Source of the DNA: Candidatus Methanohalarchaeum thermophilum
GTDB taxonomy: Archaea; Halobacteriota; Methanonatronarchaeia; Methanonatronarchaeales; Methanonatronarchaeaceae
DNA: 64,000 bases
Direction of reading: 5' to 3'
Assembly (NCBI GenBank): GCA_001914405.1
Contig: MSDW01000002.1
Location: forward strand, 124,001 to 188,000
The notes under the pieces: model-generated
The model's database searches: none
What the model was told of the DNA's origin: nothing
Seen by the model: the letters and a program-made list of their open reading frames with translations, nothing else
Part shown: piece after piece, positions 19,846 through 53,320 of the stretch
How the letters are laid out: every line of letters starts with the position of its first letter
Numbering within the stretch: position 1 is the stretch's first letter
Translations under genes and position numbers: made by a program

Positions 19846-21183
19846 ATGAAGAAGTCATTGAGACAGAACCTACGAGGACTAACTAAACAAGAATATGAGA
19901 TATTGAAGAAGATGAGTCATAAATCCAAGGACCTATACAACGAAACACTCTACGAAGTAAGACAATACTTCTTCAACAATGGAGAATACCTAAGTTACTA
20001 CGACGCCTACGAACGACTTAAAGGAGAAAGCGAGAACTACAGAGTCTTACCTTCTCAAATGGCTCAACAAACAATGAAACACGTGGACAAAGCCTTCAAA
20101 TCATTCTTTAACTTAATCAAAAAGAAAAGAGAAGGTAAATACGATGCCGAAGCACACCCACCAAATTACCTAGAAAAAGACGGACACTTTTCACTAATCT
20201 ATCCAAATCAAAGTTTCCAAGTCAAAGAAAACCACATAAGAATCGGTGTCCCAAAAAATTTCAGAGAAAAATATGGGTACACCAAAAAAGAAATCCAGAT
20301 AGATTTCACTTACGAGAAACTAAAACAAAGCCACATAGACATCAAACAACTACACATAATTCCAAGAGCAAAAGCACAATACTTCGAATACAGAATAATT
20401 TACGAAGAAGAAAAAAAACCAGTTGAGACAAAGGAAGGTACTTGGTTAAGTATTGATTTAGGATTAGATAATTTAGCTACTTGTGTTGACCATCTTGGAC
20501 GCTCATTTATCTTGGATGGGCGATTACTCAAATCGTACAACAAGTGGTGGAACAAAGAAGTAGATAAGTTACAGAGTATTAAAGATAAACAAGGTATTGA
20601 AGGCAATACTAGGAGAATAAATAAGTTATTCCGAGACCGAAACAACTACGTGCATGATTATTTGAATAAAGCAACCAAAGCAATTGTTAACTACTGTAAA
20701 GAGAATAAAATCGAGAAAGTGTTTTGTGGGGATGGAAAGGGTTGGAAACGAGGAATTAATTTAGGTGGTAGCAACAACGAGAAATTTGTTCAAATATCTT
20801 TCGATAAGTTCAAGCAGAAACTTAAGCATAAGTTAGAGTTCTATGATATAGAGTTTGAGTTAGTTGATGAATCTTACACTAGTAAGTGCAGTTTCTTTGA
20901 TAGCGAGTCCATAGAACATCACGAAGAGTACGTTGGTTCAAGGGTGGAAAGAGGCTTATTTAAAACAAGTGATGGAGTTTTAATAAATGCTGATGTAAAT
21001 GGAGCACTAAATATCGCTAAGAAAGGATTAAAAGAAATAGATATGGGTAAGCCTGAAACTTCGGGAGTAGGGTCCAGTGGCGTTGTAGACACGCCAAGGA
21101 GAATAAGGAAACCCTTTAGGTTAGGATACGGCTCAAACATAAGCGAGAGCCTAATTCAAACTTCTCCTGAACCCCCTACCTAA
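19846..21183 (+). CDS. tnpB: TnpB RNA-guided nuclease (intact, variant RuvC)
   Basis: IS605 OrfB/TnpB of 445 aa. The N-terminal OrfB helix region is present ([20 protein letters not shown]). RuvC-I Asp is in [12 protein letters not shown] and RuvC-III Asp in [13 protein letters not shown]. The expected RuvC-II Glu block is replaced by [16 protein letters not shown], with no Glu at the usual place, a pattern of one TnpB branch. The zinc ribbon is degenerate ([10 protein letters not shown] without the second CxxC). The 3' 160 nt overlap the probable omega-RNA. Confidence 0.9.
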
Positions 21184-43686: not shown

Positions 43687-44035
43687 TTAAACAAGAACTC
43701 TTAGTTTACCTATATTTTAGGTTTATTTATCAAGCTATACAATCAACCACTCAATTGAATTCCCTATACGCCTTTCTACAATTAAAAAATAAGTAAAATA
43801 GCTTATATATAATTATCGTAACTAAAAACAATTAAAAAATCCACTAAAAGTTATATAAACAACTAACATCTTCTAAAAAAATAGACAACAATTAACCTAA
43901 AAAATCAACCCAAAAGACAGGTCTGCCACAAAGACATAGTCCCTAATCCTACAAAAACAAAAAACCAACAAAAATTAAAAATAACTCAAAAACACCTAAT
44001 CCAAACCTATACAGTTAAAACACCACAAAGCCACA
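43687..44035. other. AT-rich intergenic region
   Basis: About 350 bp upstream of the Fe-S protein gene. It contains the promoter of that operon (AGCTATTTTAC and TATATAATT-like stretches near 43800-43825) and an A/C-rich tail. No gene or repeat is seen. Confidence 0.4.
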
Positions 44036-44470
44036 GTCAACTACCCCTACCAAAATCAAAGATTTTGGAAGGGGCTTGTGTATGATAGGACCAGACCACA
44101 TGTACAATTTAATTATCGGTTTCCTCGGAGAACTTCCGTTACACACAGAGAGGTTCTCGCTCATCTAGAACCGATTCCAAGGGCCAGTTGACCGTGACCC
44201 ATCCACTTCTGGGAACCGAACATAGTCAGTGGTTCCATCGGCTCTCGCGAGCACGCTTTTGCCCGAAGCGGAAAAGTTCAGGTTCTCAAGCATGGCAGCG
44301 TTCCCCAAAGAAGCGGTTTTCTCTCCTTTAAGAGAGTGCCTTAAACCAGGAGCCAACCATTCAAACCTATTGACTTTGACCAAAAATATGTGTTCTAGCC
44401 ATTCAAGCATTACCTCAATTCCTCTCCCACCTAATCAGAGATTAGAAAGGAGTCTCCTTGAGGTGAAAAG
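44036..44470 (-). mobile_element. TnpB-less IS200/IS605-type element, divergent copy
   Basis: Minus-strand copy. The right end GTCAACTACCCCTACC has hairpin AAAATCAAAGATTTT. The interior GGCCAGTTGACCGTGACCCATCC matches the 3' coding end of the intact tnpB at 28.4 kb (GCCAGTTGACCGTGGCTCAACCC), so its core relates to that second TnpB family. The left end is near 44470. A mosaic between families is possible. Confidence 0.55.
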
Positions 44471-44525
44471 ATGAACTAACCCCTACCTAATCATAGATCA
44501 GAAAAGGGTTGTCTCAACAACTAAA
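44471..44525 (-). repeat. 55-bp fused right-end/left-end mini-element
   Basis: TGAACTAACCCCTACCTAA...GGGTTGTCTCAACAACTAAA: one hairpin joins a right end to a left end. It directly abuts the left end of the element at 44036. The left flank is TTTTAT on the minus strand. Confidence 0.55.
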
Positions 44526-44647
44526 ATAAAATAAAAATTCCTGATCTTGGATGGGTTTTAGATTAATTTTTTCTCTAAATCTTAATGGGAATGATTGTTT
44601 TTTCGTGGTTTATTTAAATTATAAAAATTAATTTTTTTTATGAAGTT

Positions 44648-47500
44648 ATGATTGATGTTCTTATTGTTGATGATGAAAAGAGTTTTCTTGAGCTTACAAA
44701 GACTTATTTAGAGAAGGAAGACGATAGGTTAGATGTGGATACATATAGTTCTCCTGTAGATGCTTTTGATTGTGTTAAAAAGGGAGATTATGATTGTGTT
44801 GTTTGTGACTATCAGATGCCTGAGATGAATGGTATTGAGTTACTTCGAAAGATTAGGGAAGACTTAGATAGTGATTTACCTTTTATTGTTTTTACTGGTA
44901 AGAGCCGTGAAGAGATTGCTATAGATGCGTTGAATTATGGGGCTGATCGTTATATTCAGAAAGGTGGTGAACCTAAAAGCCAGTTCAGTGTTTTAGCTAA
45001 GGCAATAAAGCAAGAATCTGAGTACTATAAAACTAAAGAGAGACTTGAGTTGACTAATTTTTCCTTGCAGAATGCTAGTATTGGAGCGCTTTGGATTTCT
45101 CCTGGTGGGGTTATTAGGTATGCTAATAAGGAGATTTGTAGTAATCTAGGTTATGATAGGAGTGAGTTAGTTGGTAAAACTGTTGGCGAGATTAATCCAG
45201 AGTATTCTAGGGATAGGCCAGATATATGGAGTGAACTTAAGGATGAGGGTGAAATAGTTTTTAGAACCAAGCATGTGACCAAGGATGGAGATATTTACCC
45301 GGTAGAAGTTCATAGCCATTATTTAAAGAGGGATGGCAAGGAATATGAGTTTGCTTTTACTCAAGACATATCTGATATCAAAGAGAAAAAAGAGATGTTT
45401 CAAGAGATGCTTGATGGGTTACCAGATGTGGTCGGTTTCCAGAAGCCGGATCATACTATTATAAGATACAATCAAACTGGGTATGACCTATTGGATGTTT
45501 CCCCTGAGGAGGCTAGGGGCACAAAATGTTATCGTTTATTAGGTAGGGAAGTTGAATGTGAAGAGTGTGCAACTAAAAAAGCTTTAAAATCAAAGGATGT
45601 GGAGTGTTTAGAGAAATATCAGTCTGAGCTTGATATGCACCTAAAAATTACAGCAAATCCAGTATTAGATGAGCAAGAAGAAGTTAAGTACATTATAGAA
45701 CATTTACATGATATTAGTGATAGAAAAGAAGCTGAAGAAGAAATTAAAAAAACAAAAAGGAGATATCAAAACCTATTTGAAAAGGCTGGAGATGGAGTTG
45801 CTGTAATTTCACTAGAAGATGGTCATGGTGAGATACTTGAGTCTAATGAGACTTTTGCTGATATGCTTGGATACGGCCGAGAAGAACTTATTGGAAAAGA
45901 TGTTCACGACTTTATAGTCAAGGAAGACGATTTAATGGGAAAAGAAATGCATGAAGAGAAGCTTAAAAAAGGAGAAACAGTTAGATTCAATGAGAAAAAA
46001 GAGACAAAAGGTGGTAGAGAGATTTGGACAGAGGTCGTAGCCACACCAATTGATTACAACGATCAAAAAGCTGTTTTAGGAATAAACAGAGATATAACTC
46101 AGGAAAAAGATAGAAAACAAAAACTCAAAGGATATAGGAGAGTTGTAGATAGATCAGATCACTCGATTGCAGTGATAAACAAGAAACGCGAATTCGTATT
46201 TGCAAATCCACAGTACAGGGAATTTTTGGGTTTAAATGAAAAAGAACGGCTCGAAGGAAGAAAACTGGATGATTTCTTTGAAGAAAGGAAAAACAGAGAT
46301 ATAAAAGAAAGAATTAAAAAATGTTTTAACGGAGAAAGAATACAATACGAAACAACTATTACAAAAAACAAAGAAGAAAAATCCTTTGAAGTAAGATTTT
46401 ATCCTATAACAAACGATAATAAAACTAAAAAATCGGTTATGATTTTAACTGATATAACAGAAAGAAAGAAAGCTGAAAAAGACCTAAAAGAAGCTAAAAA
46501 TATTCTAGAAAAAAGCCCAGTCATTACATTTTCCTGGAAAAACGAAAAAGGATGGCCCGCGGAATTTGTATCAAGCAATGTAGATAACATATTTGGATAC
46601 ACTAAAAATGAATTTAAATCAAATAAAATACTCTATAAAGACCTTATACATCCTAGTGACCGAGAAAGAGTCCAAAAGGAAGTAAAAGAAGCTAGTAAAA
46701 AAGGAAAAAAAGAATTCACCCACAAACCATACAGAGTCAAAACCAAAAATGGAGACACCCGAATAGTAAGAGATTGGACCTCTATTGAAAGAGATTCTGA
46801 TGGAAAAATAAGACGCTACAAGGGCATAATCAGAGATATAACAAAACAAAAAAAAGCTGAAGAAAAAGAAAAATTCCTTCATAGCCTACTCAGACATGAC
46901 CTGAGCAACAAGATACAGGTGATAAAAGGCTACTTAGAACTACTACAAGAAGAACCAGAACAAAAACCCGAACACATCAAAAAGGCATTAAAAACCTGCA
47001 AAAGCAGTGAAGACATAATAGAAAAAGTAAGAACACTAAGAAAAATCGAAGAAGAAGAAGAAAACAAAGAAATCAACATAAACAATATCCTAAAAGATGC
47101 AATCGAAAAAAACCAAGATCTGGCAAAAGAAAAAAACATAAAACTGCAAAAAAACTACCCCAAAAAAATCCACAGAGTAAAAGGAGGAAAACTACTCAAA
47201 GAACTATTTAACAACCTAATAGAAAACGCAATAAAACACTCCAAAGGAAACAAAATACAAATAAACTGCAAAACAAGAGAAAACAAAGTCATATGCTCAA
47301 TTGAAGATGACGGAAAAGGAATACCAGATAAAAAAAAGAAAAAAATATTCCACAAAGGATACAAACACGGAGAAACCGCAGGAACCGGCCTAGGACTATA
47401 CCTAGCCAAAGAAATAACCAAAAACTACAACGGAAAAATAGAAGTAAAAGACTCAAAACTGGGCGGCACAAAATTCAATGTATATCTAAAAAAAGCGTGA
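44648..47500 (+). CDS. REC-multiPAS sensor histidine kinase
   Basis: Cytoplasmic sensor kinase of 950 aa. Order: receiver domain (1-122; phospho-Asp in VVCDYQMPEMNG, Lys in YIQKGG), five PAS domains (~140-250, 250-365, 370-490, 493-612, 615-740), an H-box FLHSLLRHDLSNKIQVI (His ~750) and HATPase (NLIENAIKHS, DDGKGIPD, GTGLGLYLAKE). PAS2 carries a cysteine set, KCYRLLGREVECEEC, possibly redox or metal sensing. No membrane segments. Its TGA stop is formed by the right end of the element that follows. Confidence 0.93.
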   Translation: MIDVLIVDDEKSFLELTKTYLEKEDDRLDVDTYSSPVDAFDCVKKGDYDCVVCDYQMPEMNGIELLRKIREDLDSDLPFIVFTGKSREEIAIDALNYGADRYIQKGGEPKSQFSVLAKAIKQESEYYKTKERLELTNFSLQNASIGALWISPGGVIRYANKEICSNLGYDRSELVGKTVGEINPEYSRDRPDIWSELKDEGEIVFRTKHVTKDGDIYPVEVHSHYLKRDGKEYEFAFTQDISDIKEKKEMFQEMLDGLPDVVGFQKPDHTIIRYNQTGYDLLDVSPEEARGTKCYRLLGREVECEECATKKALKSKDVECLEKYQSELDMHLKITANPVLDEQEEVKYIIEHLHDISDRKEAEEEIKKTKRRYQNLFEKAGDGVAVISLEDGHGEILESNETFADMLGYGREELIGKDVHDFIVKEDDLMGKEMHEEKLKKGETVRFNEKKETKGGREIWTEVVATPIDYNDQKAVLGINRDITQEKDRKQKLKGYRRVVDRSDHSIAVINKKREFVFANPQYREFLGLNEKERLEGRKLDDFFEERKNRDIKERIKKCFNGERIQYETTITKNKEEKSFEVRFYPITNDNKTKKSVMILTDITERKKAEKDLKEAKNILEKSPVITFSWKNEKGWPAEFVSSNVDNIFGYTKNEFKSNKILYKDLIHPSDRERVQKEVKEASKKGKKEFTHKPYRVKTKNGDTRIVRDWTSIERDSDGKIRRYKGIIRDITKQKKAEEKEKFLHSLLRHDLSNKIQVIKGYLELLQEEPEQKPEHIKKALKTCKSSEDIIEKVRTLRKIEEEEENKEININNILKDAIEKNQDLAKEKNIKLQKNYPKKIHRVKGGKLLKELFNNLIENAIKHSKGNKIQINCKTRENKVICSIEDDGKGIPDKKKKKIFHKGYKHGETAGTGLGLYLAKEITKNYNGKIEVKDSKLGGTKFNVYLKKA

Positions 47501-47945
47501 AGCAACCCCTACCTTACTCGCTTACGTTGTGAGGAAATGTGCTTCCATGTGATCCTTATCCAAATAGGAGTTTGTTTTTTTTCCCCTAGGCTTCTCTCAC
47601 TGCACCTAAATCAACACCTGGAACTTCTTGATCCAAGAGAAAAATTGGATCAGGACACAAAAAAGTGTCATATATTAACTTAACTCTTCGAATGGGGCCG
47701 CTTATCCTCCTCCAGTAGCTCCTACAACAGCCACCAAAGACCCCTACTCCAAAAGCTTCGGAGACTTACCTCTGTTTTATGTATTTGTCTAAAAGACAAT
47801 GGAATTGCTTTTTGTTTAAAAAAGGCAGACAAACCAACCAACTGCCTATTACTATTAGTTAGTACTGGAGCTAAATAAAGTGTTACGGTTGATTCATCAC
47901 CTACCTAAACCACAGATTTAGGAAGGTGTCTTCTCAACTGTTTAA
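47497..47945 (-). mobile_element. TnpB-less IS200/IS605-type element, copy E
   Basis: A 449-bp copy in minus orientation. The right end GTGAAGCAACCCCTACC starts inside the last codons of the kinase gene. The left end reads CAGTTGAGAAGACACC (minus strand) and follows CTTAT, only a few bases before the ATG of the RHH gene. The interior matches copy D in order (CTTCTCTCAC, GATCAGGACAC, ATATTAAC, CCCCTACTCC). Confidence 0.72.
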
Positions 47946-47950
47946 ATAAG

Positions 47951-48232
47951 ATGAATAACGAAAAACCACCTTCAAGGAAAAAATACGAAAAAAACAACCC
48001 CGTGGTAGGATTTCGGATAAGCAAAGAATCAAAAAAGAAATTAAACCAAATAGTCGAAGAACTAGACACAACAAAAAAAGAATGGCTTGAAAAAGTTATC
48101 AGAAACGAAGAAAGAGATATAGAAAGAGCCAAGAAAAAAGCCAAGAAAGGCAGCTGGGAAAGAGGATACAACGCAGCAGTAAAAGATGGTGGAATGGAAG
48201 AAGAGCTACCAATATATGAAATAGAAAAATAA
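47951..48232 (+). CDS. Small ribbon-helix-helix-like protein
   Basis: Highly charged 93-aa protein. Residues 17-52 (PVVGFRISKESKKKLNQIVE, then DTTKKEWLEKVI) fit an RHH DNA-binding domain; a lysine-rich helix and GSWERGYNAAVKDGG follow. Its ATG lies 5 bp from the inserted element E, so any native upstream region has been replaced by the element's left end. It could be an antitoxin-like or plasmid-type regulator. No partner toxin is adjacent. Confidence 0.65.
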   Translation: MNNEKPPSRKKYEKNNPVVGFRISKESKKKLNQIVEELDTTKKEWLEKVIRNEERDIERAKKKAKKGSWERGYNAAVKDGGMEEELPIYEIEK

Positions 48233-48501
48233 AGAAGTCTAAAAGAAACTAGAAAAAAACCCTAACAATCCATGGTTTTTTAGGTTTTATACATGTTTAC
48301 CAGTGGGTTAAAGCCAAATAAACCGAAAGAAACAGGGGAATTTCCTTTATAAACCCCATATTTTCCCATATATCCATATTATACTCTAATTATTTGGTTT
48401 ATGTGAGTTAAGGTAAATTCTATATAGTTATTTCTAAATCCTATATGTTTCCCTAGTTTTTCCTTTGGATCTATTGTTGCAAACTCTCTATACCTTGCAC
48501 C
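48233..48501. other. AT-rich intergenic region
   Basis: About 270 bp without a gene. Several TATA-like stretches (TATATCCATATTATA near 48370-48390) could serve the small ORF that follows. No repeat is recognised. Confidence 0.35.
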
Positions 48502-48639
48502 ATGGATCCCTCGGAAACAGTAGGGGAGCCAAGAAAAAAGAGAATTTATTATTTGCTTGGTCTTTTCTTTTTAACTTTTATCTTCTTGATAGTTTTAGGA
48601 GTTAATAACATAGAATATACAGAAGAAATACCCACTTGA
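48502..48639 (+). CDS. Small single-pass membrane protein (45 aa)
   Basis: An ATG-started frame encoding a charged N-terminus (ETVGEPRKKR), one clear transmembrane helix (YYLLGLFFLTFIFLIVLG) and a short acidic tail NNIEYTEEIPT. The positive-inside charges before the helix suggest an N-in orientation. No family recognised. It is convergent with the PemK-like operon (10-bp gap between stops). Confidence 0.5.
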   Translation: MDPSETVGEPRKKRIYYLLGLFFLTFIFLIVLGVNNIEYTEEIPT

Positions 48640-48648
48640 TTAAAAAAA

Positions 48649-48981
48649 TTAATTAATAGGATCAATGTAATGTAACAATTCTCTATAGGTTTCTTTTATC
48701 AAATAATTATCTACTATTGCTATATTTTTCTCAATATAATCATCTTTAATAGTAACTATACACCAAGGAGAAACATAAGAACTTTTTGGCAACTCTCCTT
48801 TTCTAAAGTTATTATCGTTTATTGGAATTGCCTTTTCTCTATTAGTAGTTGTGACAACTACACCAAGATATTCTTCCCCCATAAAAGGATGTCTCTTATT
48901 CGAGATAATTAAATAAGGTCTTTTAGAATCATTACTAAAAGGATTATTTCCAATAACTATTGAACCCTGACTATAGGGCAT
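48649..48981 (-). CDS. PemK/MazF-like protein, haloarchaeal type
   Basis: Protein of 110 aa with the SH3-like PemK/MazF fold: GSIVIGNNPFSNDSKRPYLI, HPFMGEEYLGVVVTTTNRE, and SSYVSPWCIVTIK. This subtype is known from haloarchaea as a 'growth inhibitor PemK' homologue. Canonical MazF is an mRNA endonuclease, but activity of this subtype is not established. Its ATG overlaps the stop of the preceding gene (TAATG). It is the last gene of a three-gene operon. Confidence 0.8.
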   Translation of the reverse strand: MPYSQGSIVIGNNPFSNDSKRPYLIISNKRHPFMGEEYLGVVVTTTNREKAIPINDNNFRKGELPKSSYVSPWCIVTIKDDYIEKNIAIVDNYLIKETYRELLHYIDPIN

Positions 48982-49346
48982 TAAACCTCACCTAAATCCT
49001 CTAAATTCTCTCCCCAATCCGGGTTTCTTCCATACCAATCATCACCAAATTCACTCTCAACTACCCCAAACCCAACTGAAAGCACTTTCTTATCTTTTTC
49101 ATGTCCTTGAGAACTAGGTGTATAATCTAGGGTAGAACACTCAGTTGTAAAATTTTCATGAATGTATAAAGAAAAATAATTTCCTATAGAAGAAATAGCT
49201 TTAAAGGTTATAGTATAAGTATCTTCTTCATCTTCTTTAAAAAAATCTGAAATAGACTCATTAAAACTTAAACTAGATATAGAAGAACTTGAATAACTAA
49301 AATCTAAGTTATGCATATTTTGGCCGCAATTAATTGCTTTTACCAT
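48981..49346 (-). CDS. Unknown protein, middle gene of PemK-like operon
   Basis: A 121-aa protein from ATG 49346 (MVKAINCGQNMHNL); a TTG three codons earlier is less likely because AAAGGT upstream spaces well to the ATG. It begins 1 nt after the stop of the 165-aa gene and ends overlapping the pemK-like start. Ser-rich N-terminal third, then an acidic region with DWYGRNPDWGENLEDLGEV at the end. I recognise no family. Tight coupling suggests a partner or antitoxin role (inference). Confidence 0.7.
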   Translation of the reverse strand: MVKAINCGQNMHNLDFSYSSSSISSLSFNESISDFFKEDEEDTYTITFKAISSIGNYFSLYIHENFTTECSTLDYTPSSQGHEKDKKVLSVGFGVVESEFGDDWYGRNPDWGENLEDLGEV

Positions 49347-49347
49347 C

Positions 49348-49845
49348 TTATTCAACCTTTATTTTTTTAAGTTCTTTTTGTAATTTATTTTTAACTTCTT
49401 TGGGGACATTAATTTTTGTTAGTGTTTCACTATTAACCTTATAAACAGGTTCACCTACTGGATCAATTAAATCTGTTTTTAATATTTGAGCAATTGCTGG
49501 TTTTACATTTATTTCTATACCTTCTACTAGTTCTCCCTTTAGTTTATAAGAATTCCATTTTTCATTTTTTTCCTTAATCCCTACATCATCATCTACGATA
49601 TTCTCTTCAACTTCATCAGGAGGGATAGGAGAATTTCTTGGCTCTCCTTTCATCTCCTCTGGAGCAAAAACTGTTGTTGCTCTTTTGGTTCCAGTACCTA
49701 CCACCAGATCTCCTTCCTCCTTTATACCTGGAATCAAAACTTTGCATAAAATGATTTTATGTTTTAATTTTGTTCCATCTTCTAAGATATATTCATTCCA
49801 AAACTCTTCATTGACTTCAAAATCTGGGGTTAAAAAATCAACCAT
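49348..49845 (-). CDS. Unknown acidic protein, first gene of PemK-like operon
   Basis: A 165-aa soluble acidic protein, beta-rich by appearance (KHKIILCKVLIPGIKEEGDL, VEGIEINVKPAIAQI), with a lysine-rich helical tail. No family recognised. Supported as a gene by Shine-Dalgarno GAGG before ATG 49845, TATA-like CATATATC near 49890, and coupling to two downstream genes. Its promoter is about 60 bp from the right end of a TnpB element. Confidence 0.7.
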   Translation of the reverse strand: MVDFLTPDFEVNEEFWNEYILEDGTKLKHKIILCKVLIPGIKEEGDLVVGTGTKRATTVFAPEEMKGEPRNSPIPPDEVEENIVDDDVGIKEKNEKWNSYKLKGELVEGIEINVKPAIAQILKTDLIDPVGEPVYKVNSETLTKINVPKEVKNKLQKELKKIKVE

Positions 49846-50046
49846 GTTTTGTCCTCTTAATATAAATTTTTCTTTTCATAAAAAAAGATATATGATTACT
49901 TATGTGAACTACCCCTACCTAGCTCACGTTGTTCGTGAGGAAGGGGTTTCCTGCGAGTGTTTGGACATTTGCTGGTTGGCGTATTCCAAACCTGTTTGTC
50001 GCAGAAAACCTTCCATAAAGGAAGATTGCTCGTTCACAGAGCATTC

Positions 50047-51173
50047 TTATGATAGGAAACAATTCATTATATTGATAGCAGAGTTTTTGTCTCTGTCAAT
50101 TTCGTTTCCACAATCACATTTATAAGTTCTTTCATGTAATGGCATATCCTGTTTCTTCCCACAGACACAGCACCTTTTAGTAGTGCTTGCTTCGTTGATT
50201 TCTACTACCTTCTTACCTACAAGTTCTGCCTCGTAGATTAGAAACCTAACAAATCCACCTATGGTGCCTGTATTTTGTAAACTCCTGTTCAAACCCCCTA
50301 CATCCTTGTTGCTCTATGCCATACCTTTAGCATCTAAATCCCCAACTACTATAATATTCGCTTTAATGTTCTCAACTATCTTTTTACCTAATCTATGTCG
50401 CCAATCCTTCATTTAATTAGCAAGTCTTCTTTTCACCTGTTGCAATTTCTTATTATACCATTTCCATCTATTACTTCCTTTTTACATCTGTCTCATTTTG
50501 ATTAAACTTCTTCCATTTTCAATTGCCAAAACTTACCCGGTCTTGGGTTCCTGAACCCAACAAACTTCCCACCCATATCAACTCCCATGTGTTTGTCAAC
50601 TCCTAAATCGAAAGCTTGATACTCTCCGTTATCTTTGTATCTTGGAATATCCACCCCATAAGATATTAAGACATAGTATTCTTCCTTAACTTCATCTCTG
50701 AAAATTTCAATTTGCTTAATGTCCTTATCTTCCAAATAAAACTTGGTTGGAACATCAAAAAATAGTTCTGTCTTGTCTGGATGATTGTGAAAAAACTTTA
50801 TTCCCCCCCTTTTTTATTTTAAACCCAAATTAGTTATAGCATAAATCCATGAAGTATTTACTGCCTTTAAATCCTGGTAGTTTCGCTTTATTATCTCCCT
50901 TTCTCCCATAAAGAGAATAAAAACTTGTAATTAGCGCCCAATTTCTTTAAAGCCATTTGTAAGACCTTTGAATACACCCAGTTATATTTTGGATATCCTT
51001 CTCTTAATTTGAATAACTTATTTTATTGATCTGTATATGTAATGTAATTTCTTTCCTCTTTTGATTTGTCCTTGTCTTCTTTCCAGTCCACTATACTTTC
51101 CTTGAGTGAAAAATCATAAAGCAACCTACATATCTCAAAAAGAGAAATAAGAACCTCTTCTCATTCTTCTATT
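50047..51173 (-). pseudogene. tnpB: TnpB nuclease, heavily decayed
   Basis: Pieces in order: RLLYDFSLKESIVDWKEDKD near 51100, LREGYPKYNWVYSKVLQMAL near 50970, GDNKAKLPGFKGSKYFMDL near 50870, IKFFHNHPDKTELFFDVP near 50770, RuvC-I FDLGVDKHMGVDMGGKFVGF at ~50560-50620, and the zinc ribbon CCVCGKKQ...YKCDCGNEIDRDKNSAINI at ~50050-50170. At least six stops or frameshifts and a missing middle make it dead. Confidence 0.82.
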
Positions 51174-51176
51174 AGC

Positions 51177-51317
51177 TCAATCCTTATTTTTTAAGTTAGT
51201 TACATTTTTCACCAACCTATTTAATATTTCATCGTATGTTTCCCTCTTTGTTATCCTTAGCTCCTTGAGTCTCTTCCGTGTTTCTTTTTCTACCTGTATA
51301 GTTGCCAGGTCCTCCAC
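51177..51317 (-). CDS. 46-aa RHH (VapB-like) protein inside TnpB element
   Basis: GTG-started short frame with an excellent Shine-Dalgarno (AGGAGG, 6 nt upstream). It encodes MEDLATIQVEKETRKRLKEL, then RITKRETYDEILNRLV, a typical ribbon-helix-helix antitoxin-like domain with strand ATIQV and helix-turn-helix. The stop lies just before the tnpB N-terminus, inside the element. The frame is intact although the adjacent tnpB is badly broken. Confidence 0.65.
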   Translation of the reverse strand: MEDLATIQVEKETRKRLKELRITKRETYDEILNRLVKNVTNLKNKD

Positions 51318-51442
51318 ATATACCTCCTACATAAACACTATTCAACTACTTATACACACCTTGTGGTAATTCATCCCCCTACCTAAATCAAAGATTAAAG
51401 ACAGGGATTTCTCACCAAAAAAAGTTAAATCATTATTCCTTT

Positions 51443-51589
51443 TTAAGAAACAAAACCCTCGGATTCATAACTAAAATCTATTTTGTCTCCTTTTTTCCAG
51501 TCTAGGCCTTCGACCATGTCTTTTGGTAGGATTATTCGGTAGGATCCATCTTTCTTTTGTTGTAGTTTACGGGTACCCAAAAATACCAC
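51443..51589 (-). CDS. 48-aa AbrB/MazE-like DNA-binding protein
   Basis: GTG-started frame encoding GTRKLQQKKDGSYRIILPKD, then MVEGLDWKKGDKIDFSYESE, the swapped-hairpin AbrB/SpoVT fold of MazE-like antitoxins and archaeal regulators. TTTTTATATC lies about 25 bp upstream of the GTG, fitting a leaderless transcript. It lies just outside the left end of the TnpB element. No partner toxin is adjacent; the nearest PemK-like gene is 2.5 kb away. Confidence 0.6.
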   Translation of the reverse strand: MVFLGTRKLQQKKDGSYRIILPKDMVEGLDWKKGDKIDFSYESEGFVS

Positions 51590-51683
51590 TATCAGTACCT
51601 ATATAGATTTTGATATAAAAATGCTGGGAAAAGAATAAGAAAAGAGAGTATATTGTGTATACCCTTTGAACCTTCCTTCTACA

Positions 51684-51758
<75 letters not shown>

Positions 51759-51859
51759 TTAATTGATTCAAGGTTGATTTTATTTGAACATACTTCTTTT
51801 GGGTTTAGAGACCTAAAAAATTTACTTGCTGAGTAGTAAAATAGATCGGGATCTTAACT

Positions 51860-52144
51860 ATGTCTAAGGAATTAAATGTTAATATACCTGAGGAAACTCA
51901 ACCCACTTACGCTAATCTAGTGCAGATTTCCCATAAGGATGACGAGTTCACTCTTAATTTTTTGCATAGAATACCTAACACGAACCAAGCTAATGCTAAG
52001 GCGATAGTATCTATTACTCCACAGCACGCTAAGAGGTTGAAAAGAGCACTTGAACAAAACATACAAAAATATGAAAGTAAATTTGGTAAAATAGATTTAC
52101 CTGAAGAGGAAGAAAAGGAACACCACGATGTAGAAATAGCCTGA
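51860..52144 (+). CDS. DUF3467 family protein
   Basis: Soluble 94-aa protein with the DUF3467 pattern: TYANLVQISHKDDEFTLNFL, then KAIVSITPQHAKRLKRALEQ and NIQKYESKFGKI, followed by an acidic tail. The family occurs in archaea and bacteria without known function. It lies between two tRNA genes; a TATA-like region precedes it near 51830. Confidence 0.88.
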   Translation: MSKELNVNIPEETQPTYANLVQISHKDDEFTLNFLHRIPNTNQANAKAIVSITPQHAKRLKRALEQNIQKYESKFGKIDLPEEEEKEHHDVEIA

Positions 52145-52158
52145 AACTAATTAACTTC

Positions 52159-52231
52159 AGTCCCGTTGGGTAGTGGTCAATCCTCTGAGGCTCTGGACCT
52201 CAGGACGGCGGTTCGAATCCGCCCGGGACTA
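52159..52231 (+). tRNA. tRNA-Gln (CUG)
   Basis: Acceptor AGTCCCG/CGGGACT, D arm with TGGGTAGTGGTCAATCC, anticodon stem TGAGG/CCTCA around loop CTCTGGA (anticodon CTG), T arm GGCGG-TTCGAAT-CCGCC, discriminator A. CCA is not encoded. Confidence 0.94.
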
Positions 52232-52256
52232 TTAAAAAGGATTAGCCTAAAAAGAT

Positions 52257-52313
52257 GTGAAGTAACCCCTACCTAAATCAGAGATTTAGGAGGGTGTCTT
52301 CTCAGTCCAATAG
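52257..52313 (-). repeat. 57-bp fused right-end/left-end mini-element
   Basis: Begins GTGAAGTAACCCCTACCTAA and ends GGGTGTCTTCTCAGTCCAAT, joined in one hairpin AAATCAGAGATTT. On the minus strand it follows TTTAT. It is nearly the same length and structure as the one at 40729. The truncated P-type ATPase frame starts immediately beyond it. Confidence 0.72.
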
Positions 52314-52315
52314 AT

Positions 52316-52789
52316 AAACCACCCAGAGATCCAGACGAAGCTATTCTAACCTGTAGAAACTGGGCGGAAATAAGCTTGTATGGTGTTTTAATAGGTTTAT
52401 CTACATTAATAGCTTTTATAATAGGAGGAAAATGGTTTGGAATGTACGCTAACGGAGTTACCAACTATAAAGTTGTCTCTATTTCGTTCCTCACTTTAGC
52501 CTTCGGACAATTATGGCATGTCTTCAATATGCGAGACACAAAATCCAATTTTTTGAAAAATGAGATAACTGTCAACAAATATATATGGGGTGCTCTAGGT
52601 CTGTGCACAGTTTTAATCCTAATATCCGTATATACTCCAGGGCTCTCAACGGTACTAAAAATAGTGGATCCAGGAACCGAGGGATGGGGTCTAGCAATAG
52701 TAATGAGCCTAGTCCCATTTGCAATTGGACAGATAGGTAAAAAATTAGCACTACACCTCCCAATTAAACTAAATAACTTAAAAACCTGA
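52316..52789 (+). pseudogene. C-terminal fragment of a P-type cation ATPase
   Basis: An open frame continues from the mini-element without a proper start: PPRDPDEAILTCRNWAEISL, then four hydrophobic segments with SFLTLAFGQLWHVFNMRD. This is the C-terminal transmembrane domain of Ca2+/cation-transporting P-type ATPases. The ~700-residue N-terminal part (actuator, DKTGT phosphorylation site, nucleotide domain) is absent. An ATG at 52376 could start a 137-aa peptide, but it would not be a pump. Confidence 0.85.
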
Positions 52790-52924
52790 ACAATAAACCT
52801 AAAAAAAGATGAATGAAAACAGAAAAACCTAAGACACTTTTTATTGTATTTAATATTAATCATACCTGCCTCAGCTTAAGCACCAAATAAAAACAACCCA
52901 TTAATTATTTAAGGTAATTTGAAA

Positions 52925-53320
52925 TCCTCACTCCACCTAACCGTTAGTTAAGGTAGAATGAATCCATCCACTCACTTGCACCATCTGGTTTTCAGAACCA
53001 CCGAAGAAATCCAATCCAATCCAATCCTATGCTATTGGGAACATCCTTTTTGGGAAATGGAAAAAAAGAATATCTTTCTTTTTCTAAAGTTATAATTCAC
53101 TTATATCTGCTTGGGTTACATAATCAGAGGTTCAAAGTCAATGGTAGTGGATTTGAGTTGATTTTGGCTATGGTTGTTTTTGATATCAGTAGAGGGTCTA
53201 TTTTTCGTTCAAGAAGGGAATCCCCTATTCTTTATCTGTTTTTGATTCTTCTCTACTGGATTAAGAGGATTCAAAGGATTTTCGTTATCTTGCTACTATC
53301 AAGAACAGGGGCCCTGTAAT
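52925..53320 (+). pseudogene. Transposon or repeat relic, possible IS4-like transposase tail
   Basis: The gap between the ATPase relic and the ABC operon holds repeat-like sequence (CCACCTAACCGTTAGTTAAGG, AATCC tandem copies). A frame at 53150-53290 encodes SRGSIFRSRRESPILYLFLI, reminiscent of the 'R..TTSRNPxxRLFYF' tail of IS4-type transposases. The evidence is weak. The frame could be chance. Confidence 0.25.

Follow-up and report, generated by a model that had tools for sequence, protein, structure and literature searches.

Two adjacent genes of the 64,000-nucleotide stretch of DNA analysed here (the window), designated B and C, probably form a tail-based type II toxin-antitoxin pair, a reading that we hold with good confidence. 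Gene C encodes a divergent relative of the MazF/PemK toxins, as judged from its sequence, and gene B is best read as an antitoxin that has kept the toxin-gripping tail of its relatives while its DNA-binding domain appears to have been exchanged for an unrelated domain of about 85 residues. A third gene, A, precedes them and encodes what is predicted to be an internally duplicated all-beta protein.

The trio A-B-C lies on the minus strand at 49845-48649 of the window, its genes comprising 165, 121 and 110 codons in that order (Table 1), and the genome that carries it is archaeal, 2.14 Mb in size and assembled in four contigs; the searches group it in one class with two other genomes, within the phylum to which the haloarchaea belong. 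An earlier note on this DNA had described three coupled genes of 165, 121 and 110 aa joined by a 1-nt gap and a TAATG overlap, and its description holds, with the coordinates 48649-49845 exact. The A-B junction, with its 1-nt gap, reads GAATAAGATGG, and the B-C junction, in which TAATG is the overlap and GGTGAGG stands immediately ahead of the gene C start, reads GGTGAGGTTTAATGCC. An alternative TTG start 9 nt upstream would extend gene B to 124 aa and into overlap with gene A. The promoter of the trio would be expected in the short region upstream of gene A (Table 1); neither tRNA nor Rfam RNA was found within the trio.

Table 1. Coordinates of the three-gene cluster and its immediate surroundings in the window.
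Feature	Position	Strand	Details
Gene A	49348..49845	-	ATG start, TAA stop; 165 aa; acidic
Gene B	48981..49346	-	ATG at 49346, stop ends 48981; 121 aa; proposed antitoxin
Gene C	48649..48981	-	ATG at 48981, stop ends 48649; 110 aa; putative MazF/PemK-family toxin
Tail-coding part of gene B	48990..49085	-	VLSVGFGVVESEFGDDWYGRNPDWGENLEDLG; homologous to winged-helix antitoxin tails; = G000:C2:172990-173085
Upstream region	49846..49910	-	GAGG 7 nt before gene A; AT-rich TATA-like stretches
Decayed TnpB element remnants	49911..50735	.	C-terminal zinc-ribbon fragment 50047-50292; CCCCTACCT element at 49912

The assignment of gene C, which the earlier note had called a haloarchaeal-type PemK/MazF-like protein, is borne out by several comparisons. 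The Pfam model PemK_toxin (PF02452) matched residues 6-103 with an E-value of 6e-4 and 20.4 bits, which is under its curated cut-off of 23.1 bits, and the PHROG match was MazF-like. A profile of the gene C family, built from 17 sequences, aligned over its full length (positions 1-107) with the solved structure of MazF6 at an E-value of 2.2e-6, the best overall, and also matched solved MazF4 and EndoA. Among the 17 homologues R21, which forms part of an RP motif, is invariant and T45 nearly so; from what is known of MazF, we take these two residues to be the catalytic Arg and Thr. Of the 394 Halobacteriota genomes sampled, 79 carried a member of the family, and the five nearest relatives of gene C are 44-51% identical to it; the named plasmid relatives among the matches listed were haloarchaeal, and a viral scan returned no relative.

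The usual partner of this toxin family emerged when the upstream neighbours of 42 toxin homologues, among them a few redundant ones, were surveyed. At 38 of these loci, a coupled gene for a MarR-like winged-helix protein of about 120 aa lies directly upstream, mostly with a 4-nt overlap or a spacing within 5 nt; three more distant toxins follow a gene whose product resembles, by eye, AbrB-type MazE, and at one locus no upstream partner was found. The winged-helix partners tested match Pfam MarR_2 with E-values of up to 1.7e-9, and their C-termini are acidic tails, of which there are several kinds. The coupled winged-helix gene is evidently the antitoxin of the gene C family toxins and, because it stands upstream of 38 of the 42, the winged-helix/MazF pair is likely the ancestral state; in these relatives the winged-helix protein presumably represses its own operon. 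A PemK-like gene that usually stands alone among unrelated neighbours, which the earlier note had named as evidence against its proposal, is thus not what the survey found. The portion of Makarova et al. (2009; PMC2701414) available to us gives AbrB, RHH, CcdA-like and XF1863 proteins as partners of MazF, and a winged-helix partner is not among them; nor was a description of a widespread haloarchaeal winged-helix/MazF family found in the open-access literature searched.

Gene B is tied to these antitoxins by its C-terminus. Residues 1-85 make up an orphan acidic domain and residues from about 86 to 121 a toxin-type tail, the last 32 or so of which match the antitoxin tails (VLSVGFGVVESEFGDDWYGRNPDWGENLEDLG, compared with ASFVGVETAASSFGDDWYAENEGWEEDLPDLS in the antitoxin paired with the closest toxin). 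Scored with a position matrix derived from 13 winged-helix antitoxin tails, with gene B left out, the tail reached 36.5 bits; among 20,000 shuffled versions of gene B the mean was -21 and the maximum 11.1, and gene B was the best of the 578 open frames in the window, the runner-up scoring -0.5. When the whole of gene B was compared with 72,556 plasmids using tblastn, the single match, a weak one (E 0.09), aligned residues 91-120 with a haloarchaeal HTH protein that is, by its sequence, of the same winged-helix antitoxin type. Over 34 antitoxin-toxin pairs, tail and toxin co-vary with a rank correlation of 0.55, a value reached in none of 2000 permutations; the winged helices co-vary with the toxins too (rank correlation 0.67), so that co-variation alone is no proof of the tail as the binding site. 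Of the five tails that most resemble the gene B tail, four belong to the four toxins closest to gene C. These observations sustain the toxin-antitoxin class proposed in the earlier note, with a MazF relative in gene C and, in gene B, a tail homologous to those of winged-helix antitoxins.

A search of the 394 genomes with a tail profile returned 23 places, comprising 20 winged-helix proteins, two relics and gene B; among the 23, only gene B combines a neighbouring toxin with the lack of a winged helix. The two relics (L099, L100) have neither toxin nor winged helix. Two winged-helix antitoxins of the partner family (L086, L091) were also seen with no detectable toxin nearby and, taken with the isolated tail relics, they indicate that the loss of parts of the pair is recurrent.

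The N-terminal part of gene B resembles nothing to which it was compared. A six-frame profile search of 48400-50200 detected the tail alone and no trace of a winged helix in any frame, which led us to reject a frame-shifted winged helix, and residues 1-85 scored no better than shuffles against winged helices. No Pfam family matched gene B at E <= 1, AbrB- and RHH-type N-terminal domains included, in keeping with the earlier observation that the trio lacks a standard MazE. Relatives of the N-terminus were absent from 247 Halobacteriota genomes, plasmids, phages and the PDB, and pattern scans, which reach close relatives only, likewise returned none from viral contigs or from 85,000 species genomes. 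The possibility that gene B is a diverged copy of the gene A domain was rejected on an hhalign probability of 0.2%. Structure prediction of gene B alone was unusable (pLDDT 33), and the coding signal of its N-terminal part is weak in the annotated frame, that of gene C being nearly as weak. The earlier statement that the first two proteins match nothing recognisable therefore stands for gene A and for the gene B N-terminus, both without known function, and falls for the tail of gene B. The alternative it had allowed for, that these two proteins are metabolic enzymes, did not hold either; neither looks like one.

The surroundings of the trio are those of an accessory patch beside mobile elements, as the earlier note had proposed: third-position GC is 0.18 in A, B and C alike, compared with 0.29 +/- 0.026 for the window's reference genes, and this low value fits such a patch, as do the adjoining remnants of decayed TnpB elements (Table 1). 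The element CCCCTACCT occurs 13 times in the window where 0.34 occurrences are expected, with copies at 21173, 44480, 47506, 49912, 51376 and 52266 among others; it is found at the 3' end of a tnpB gene (19846-21183) as well as alone in intergenic DNA. These copies are likely IS605/TnpB end or guide-RNA-like elements, and those in 44000-53000 were not recognised by Rfam. Downstream of the trio, on the opposite strand at 47951-48232, lies a gene for a lysine-rich protein of 93 aa with weak transcription-repressor and RHH matches. The earlier suggestion of a defence cassette found nothing in its support; PADLOC scores were at chance level with no credible match, and an anti-virus reading was rejected. 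A sister genome (G001), inspected for an empty site, shares the order tRNA-Pro, DUF3467, tRNA-Gln, but the contig breaks off some 400 nt past tRNA-Pro. The complete trio was absent from every other genome and collection searched; consequently, conservation cannot be called upon for a three-part system, and recurrence offers no argument against assembly error or decay.

A second locus in the same genome (G000:C2:305111-305422; L110, L117) encodes an intact antitoxin of this family with the conventional winged helix. The toxin that follows stops after HHPF, at about 36 residues, where a TTTGGTAGGGG (CCCCTACC-type) repeat takes over. One and the same organism thus also has the usual gene arrangement, with a CCCCTACC-type repeat at the toxin breakpoint.

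Gene A belongs to a mostly archaeal family, for which no Pfam or NCBIfam model was found, marked by the motif W-N-x-Y-x-L-x-D-G ... G-x-P-x-Y-x-V-x-S (the WNEY-LEDGT family) and occurring in single (about 95 aa) and double (about 145 aa) forms; one single-domain relative is from a deltaproteobacterial metagenome-assembled genome. An AlphaFold2 model based on ten sequences (pLDDT 89.7) predicts an all-beta protein of two four-strand units, whose strands measure 6/5/16/14 and 5/6/17/14 residues, and a terminal helix. The two halves of gene A align with each other with a score of 48 and those of an Archaeoglobaceae relative better, with a score of 98; on this model, gene A is an internally duplicated all-beta protein. 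Neither the PDB nor viral models gave a fold match at E <= 0.001, and weak matches to a GFP barrel and an SSB fold (best E 0.17 and 0.046) were set aside. There was likewise no significant PDB sequence match, no match to a DNA-binding family of Pfam or NCBIfam, and no relative on plasmids, phages or viral contigs.

The relatives of gene A bear on whether it belongs to the system at all. They stand alone beside housekeeping genes and never adjoin toxins in the loci seen; within flanks of about 1.5 kb, a gene for the modification of tRNA or of a translation factor (Trm56, TrmG10-like, TrmI/GCD14, ArcTGT or Dph6, names that go beyond Pfam matches being our own assignment) accompanies 21 of 29 of them (L020, L022-L026, L029-L031, L034, L035, L037, L038, L040-L046, L048). 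These 21 probably represent few independent placements and are no more than a lead; a role of the family near RNA modification is worth testing. We therefore lean towards gene A as a bystander: a small protein, either acquired or resident, whose gene happens to lie in the operon of a system made up of B and C only. The richness of the patch in mobile-element remnants agrees with this, while the tight A-B junction and the equal composition of the genes speak against it. The same 1-nt gap and shared low third-position GC, along with the well-folded prediction for gene A and the existence of systems with a separate regulator or chaperone (PMC4803016, PMC6377645), would suit a true three-component system, in which gene A is needed as a chaperone, a stabiliser or a separate regulator acting with the gene B N-terminus. 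Such a system is possible and on the whole doubtful, since relatives of gene A keep away from toxins, gene A has no SecB-like or DNA-binding match, and the trio was found in a single genome.

Decay of the locus, at least in part, is possible but unlikely. Here recombination would have destroyed the winged helix and fused the tail by chance to a short frame, leaving B a minimal or failing antitoxin; the orphan N-terminus with its weak coding signal, the relic tails elsewhere (L099, L100) and the truncated sister toxin in the same genome speak for it. Against this, toxin C is intact with its conserved residues and, if active, needs a working antitoxin, and gene B has a clean start and stop and tight junctions on both sides. 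That gene C is a repurposed MazF-fold protein and no toxin, in a housekeeping or regulatory trio, draws on the sub-threshold Pfam score and is very improbable in view of the conserved R21 and T45, the match to solved MazF, the accessory and patchy distribution of the family and the cognate antitoxin tail alongside.

Taking B and C as a toxin-antitoxin pair, its mechanism may be proposed on the model of MazEF, where a disordered MazE tail blocks MazF (PMC4803016). By that analogy gene C would be a MazF-family ribonuclease that cuts RNA and so stops growth, the acidic, aromatic C-terminal tail of gene B would grip and block it, and loss of gene B would release C and arrest growth. The ancestral partner would have joined this tail to a MarR-like winged helix and presumably repressed its own operon; its winged helix would then have been swapped for the acidic domain, perhaps by recombination in the TnpB-rich patch, a direction of exchange that we infer, and the duplicated beta protein would now head the operon. 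As gene B lacks a winged helix, autoregulation would have been lost or taken over by another factor, possibly gene A, and it is our guess that gene A makes up for a function missing from the new antitoxin, be it regulation, stability or folding. That the new antitoxin domain works with the duplicated WNEY-LEDGT beta protein in a three-component archaeal system seems improbable; if true, regulation or stability of an antitoxin would have passed to a family otherwise found beside tRNA-modification genes.

Archaeal toxin-antitoxin biology is thinly studied, and the locus draws attention to a winged-helix/MazF family that is widespread in haloarchaea. It suggests, here in archaea, that the toxin-binding tail of an antitoxin may be inherited as a unit apart from the DNA-binding part, and, being small, it lends itself to the question of what an antitoxin requires beyond the tail. 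The uncharacterised, mostly archaeal beta-domain family of gene A gains a testable setting.

Among known systems, the toxins of E. coli MazEF and B. subtilis EndoA belong to the same fold family as gene C, and blocking of the toxin through the C-terminal tail of the antitoxin is presumably common to them and to the B-C pair; the N-terminus of MazE is AbrB-type (RHH-type in others; PMC4803016), whereas gene B has no such match. TAC modules, such as HigBA with SecB, likewise couple three genes that include antitoxin and toxin, and their antitoxin HigA1 is a DNA-binding protein with an added C-terminal chaperone-addiction extension that SecB recognises (PMC6377645); gene A, in contrast, does not match SecB, and gene B ends in a tail of the toxin type. 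As in omega-epsilon-zeta and paaR-paaA-parE, the antitoxin has no recognisable DNA-binding domain and another gene leads the operon, but gene A is acidic and without a DNA-binding family match, and the toxin family differs. A pair on plasmid PL131 of Natronomonas pharaonis (WP_011324426, WP_011324427) has a toxin of the same family (47% identity) and the same gene order, with the antitoxin gene directly before the toxin in both, and shares with gene B the tail motif DDWYxQNxxW...LPDL; in PL131-type pairs the antitoxin begins with a MarR-like winged helix, whereas here an unrelated domain takes that place and an extra gene stands ahead.
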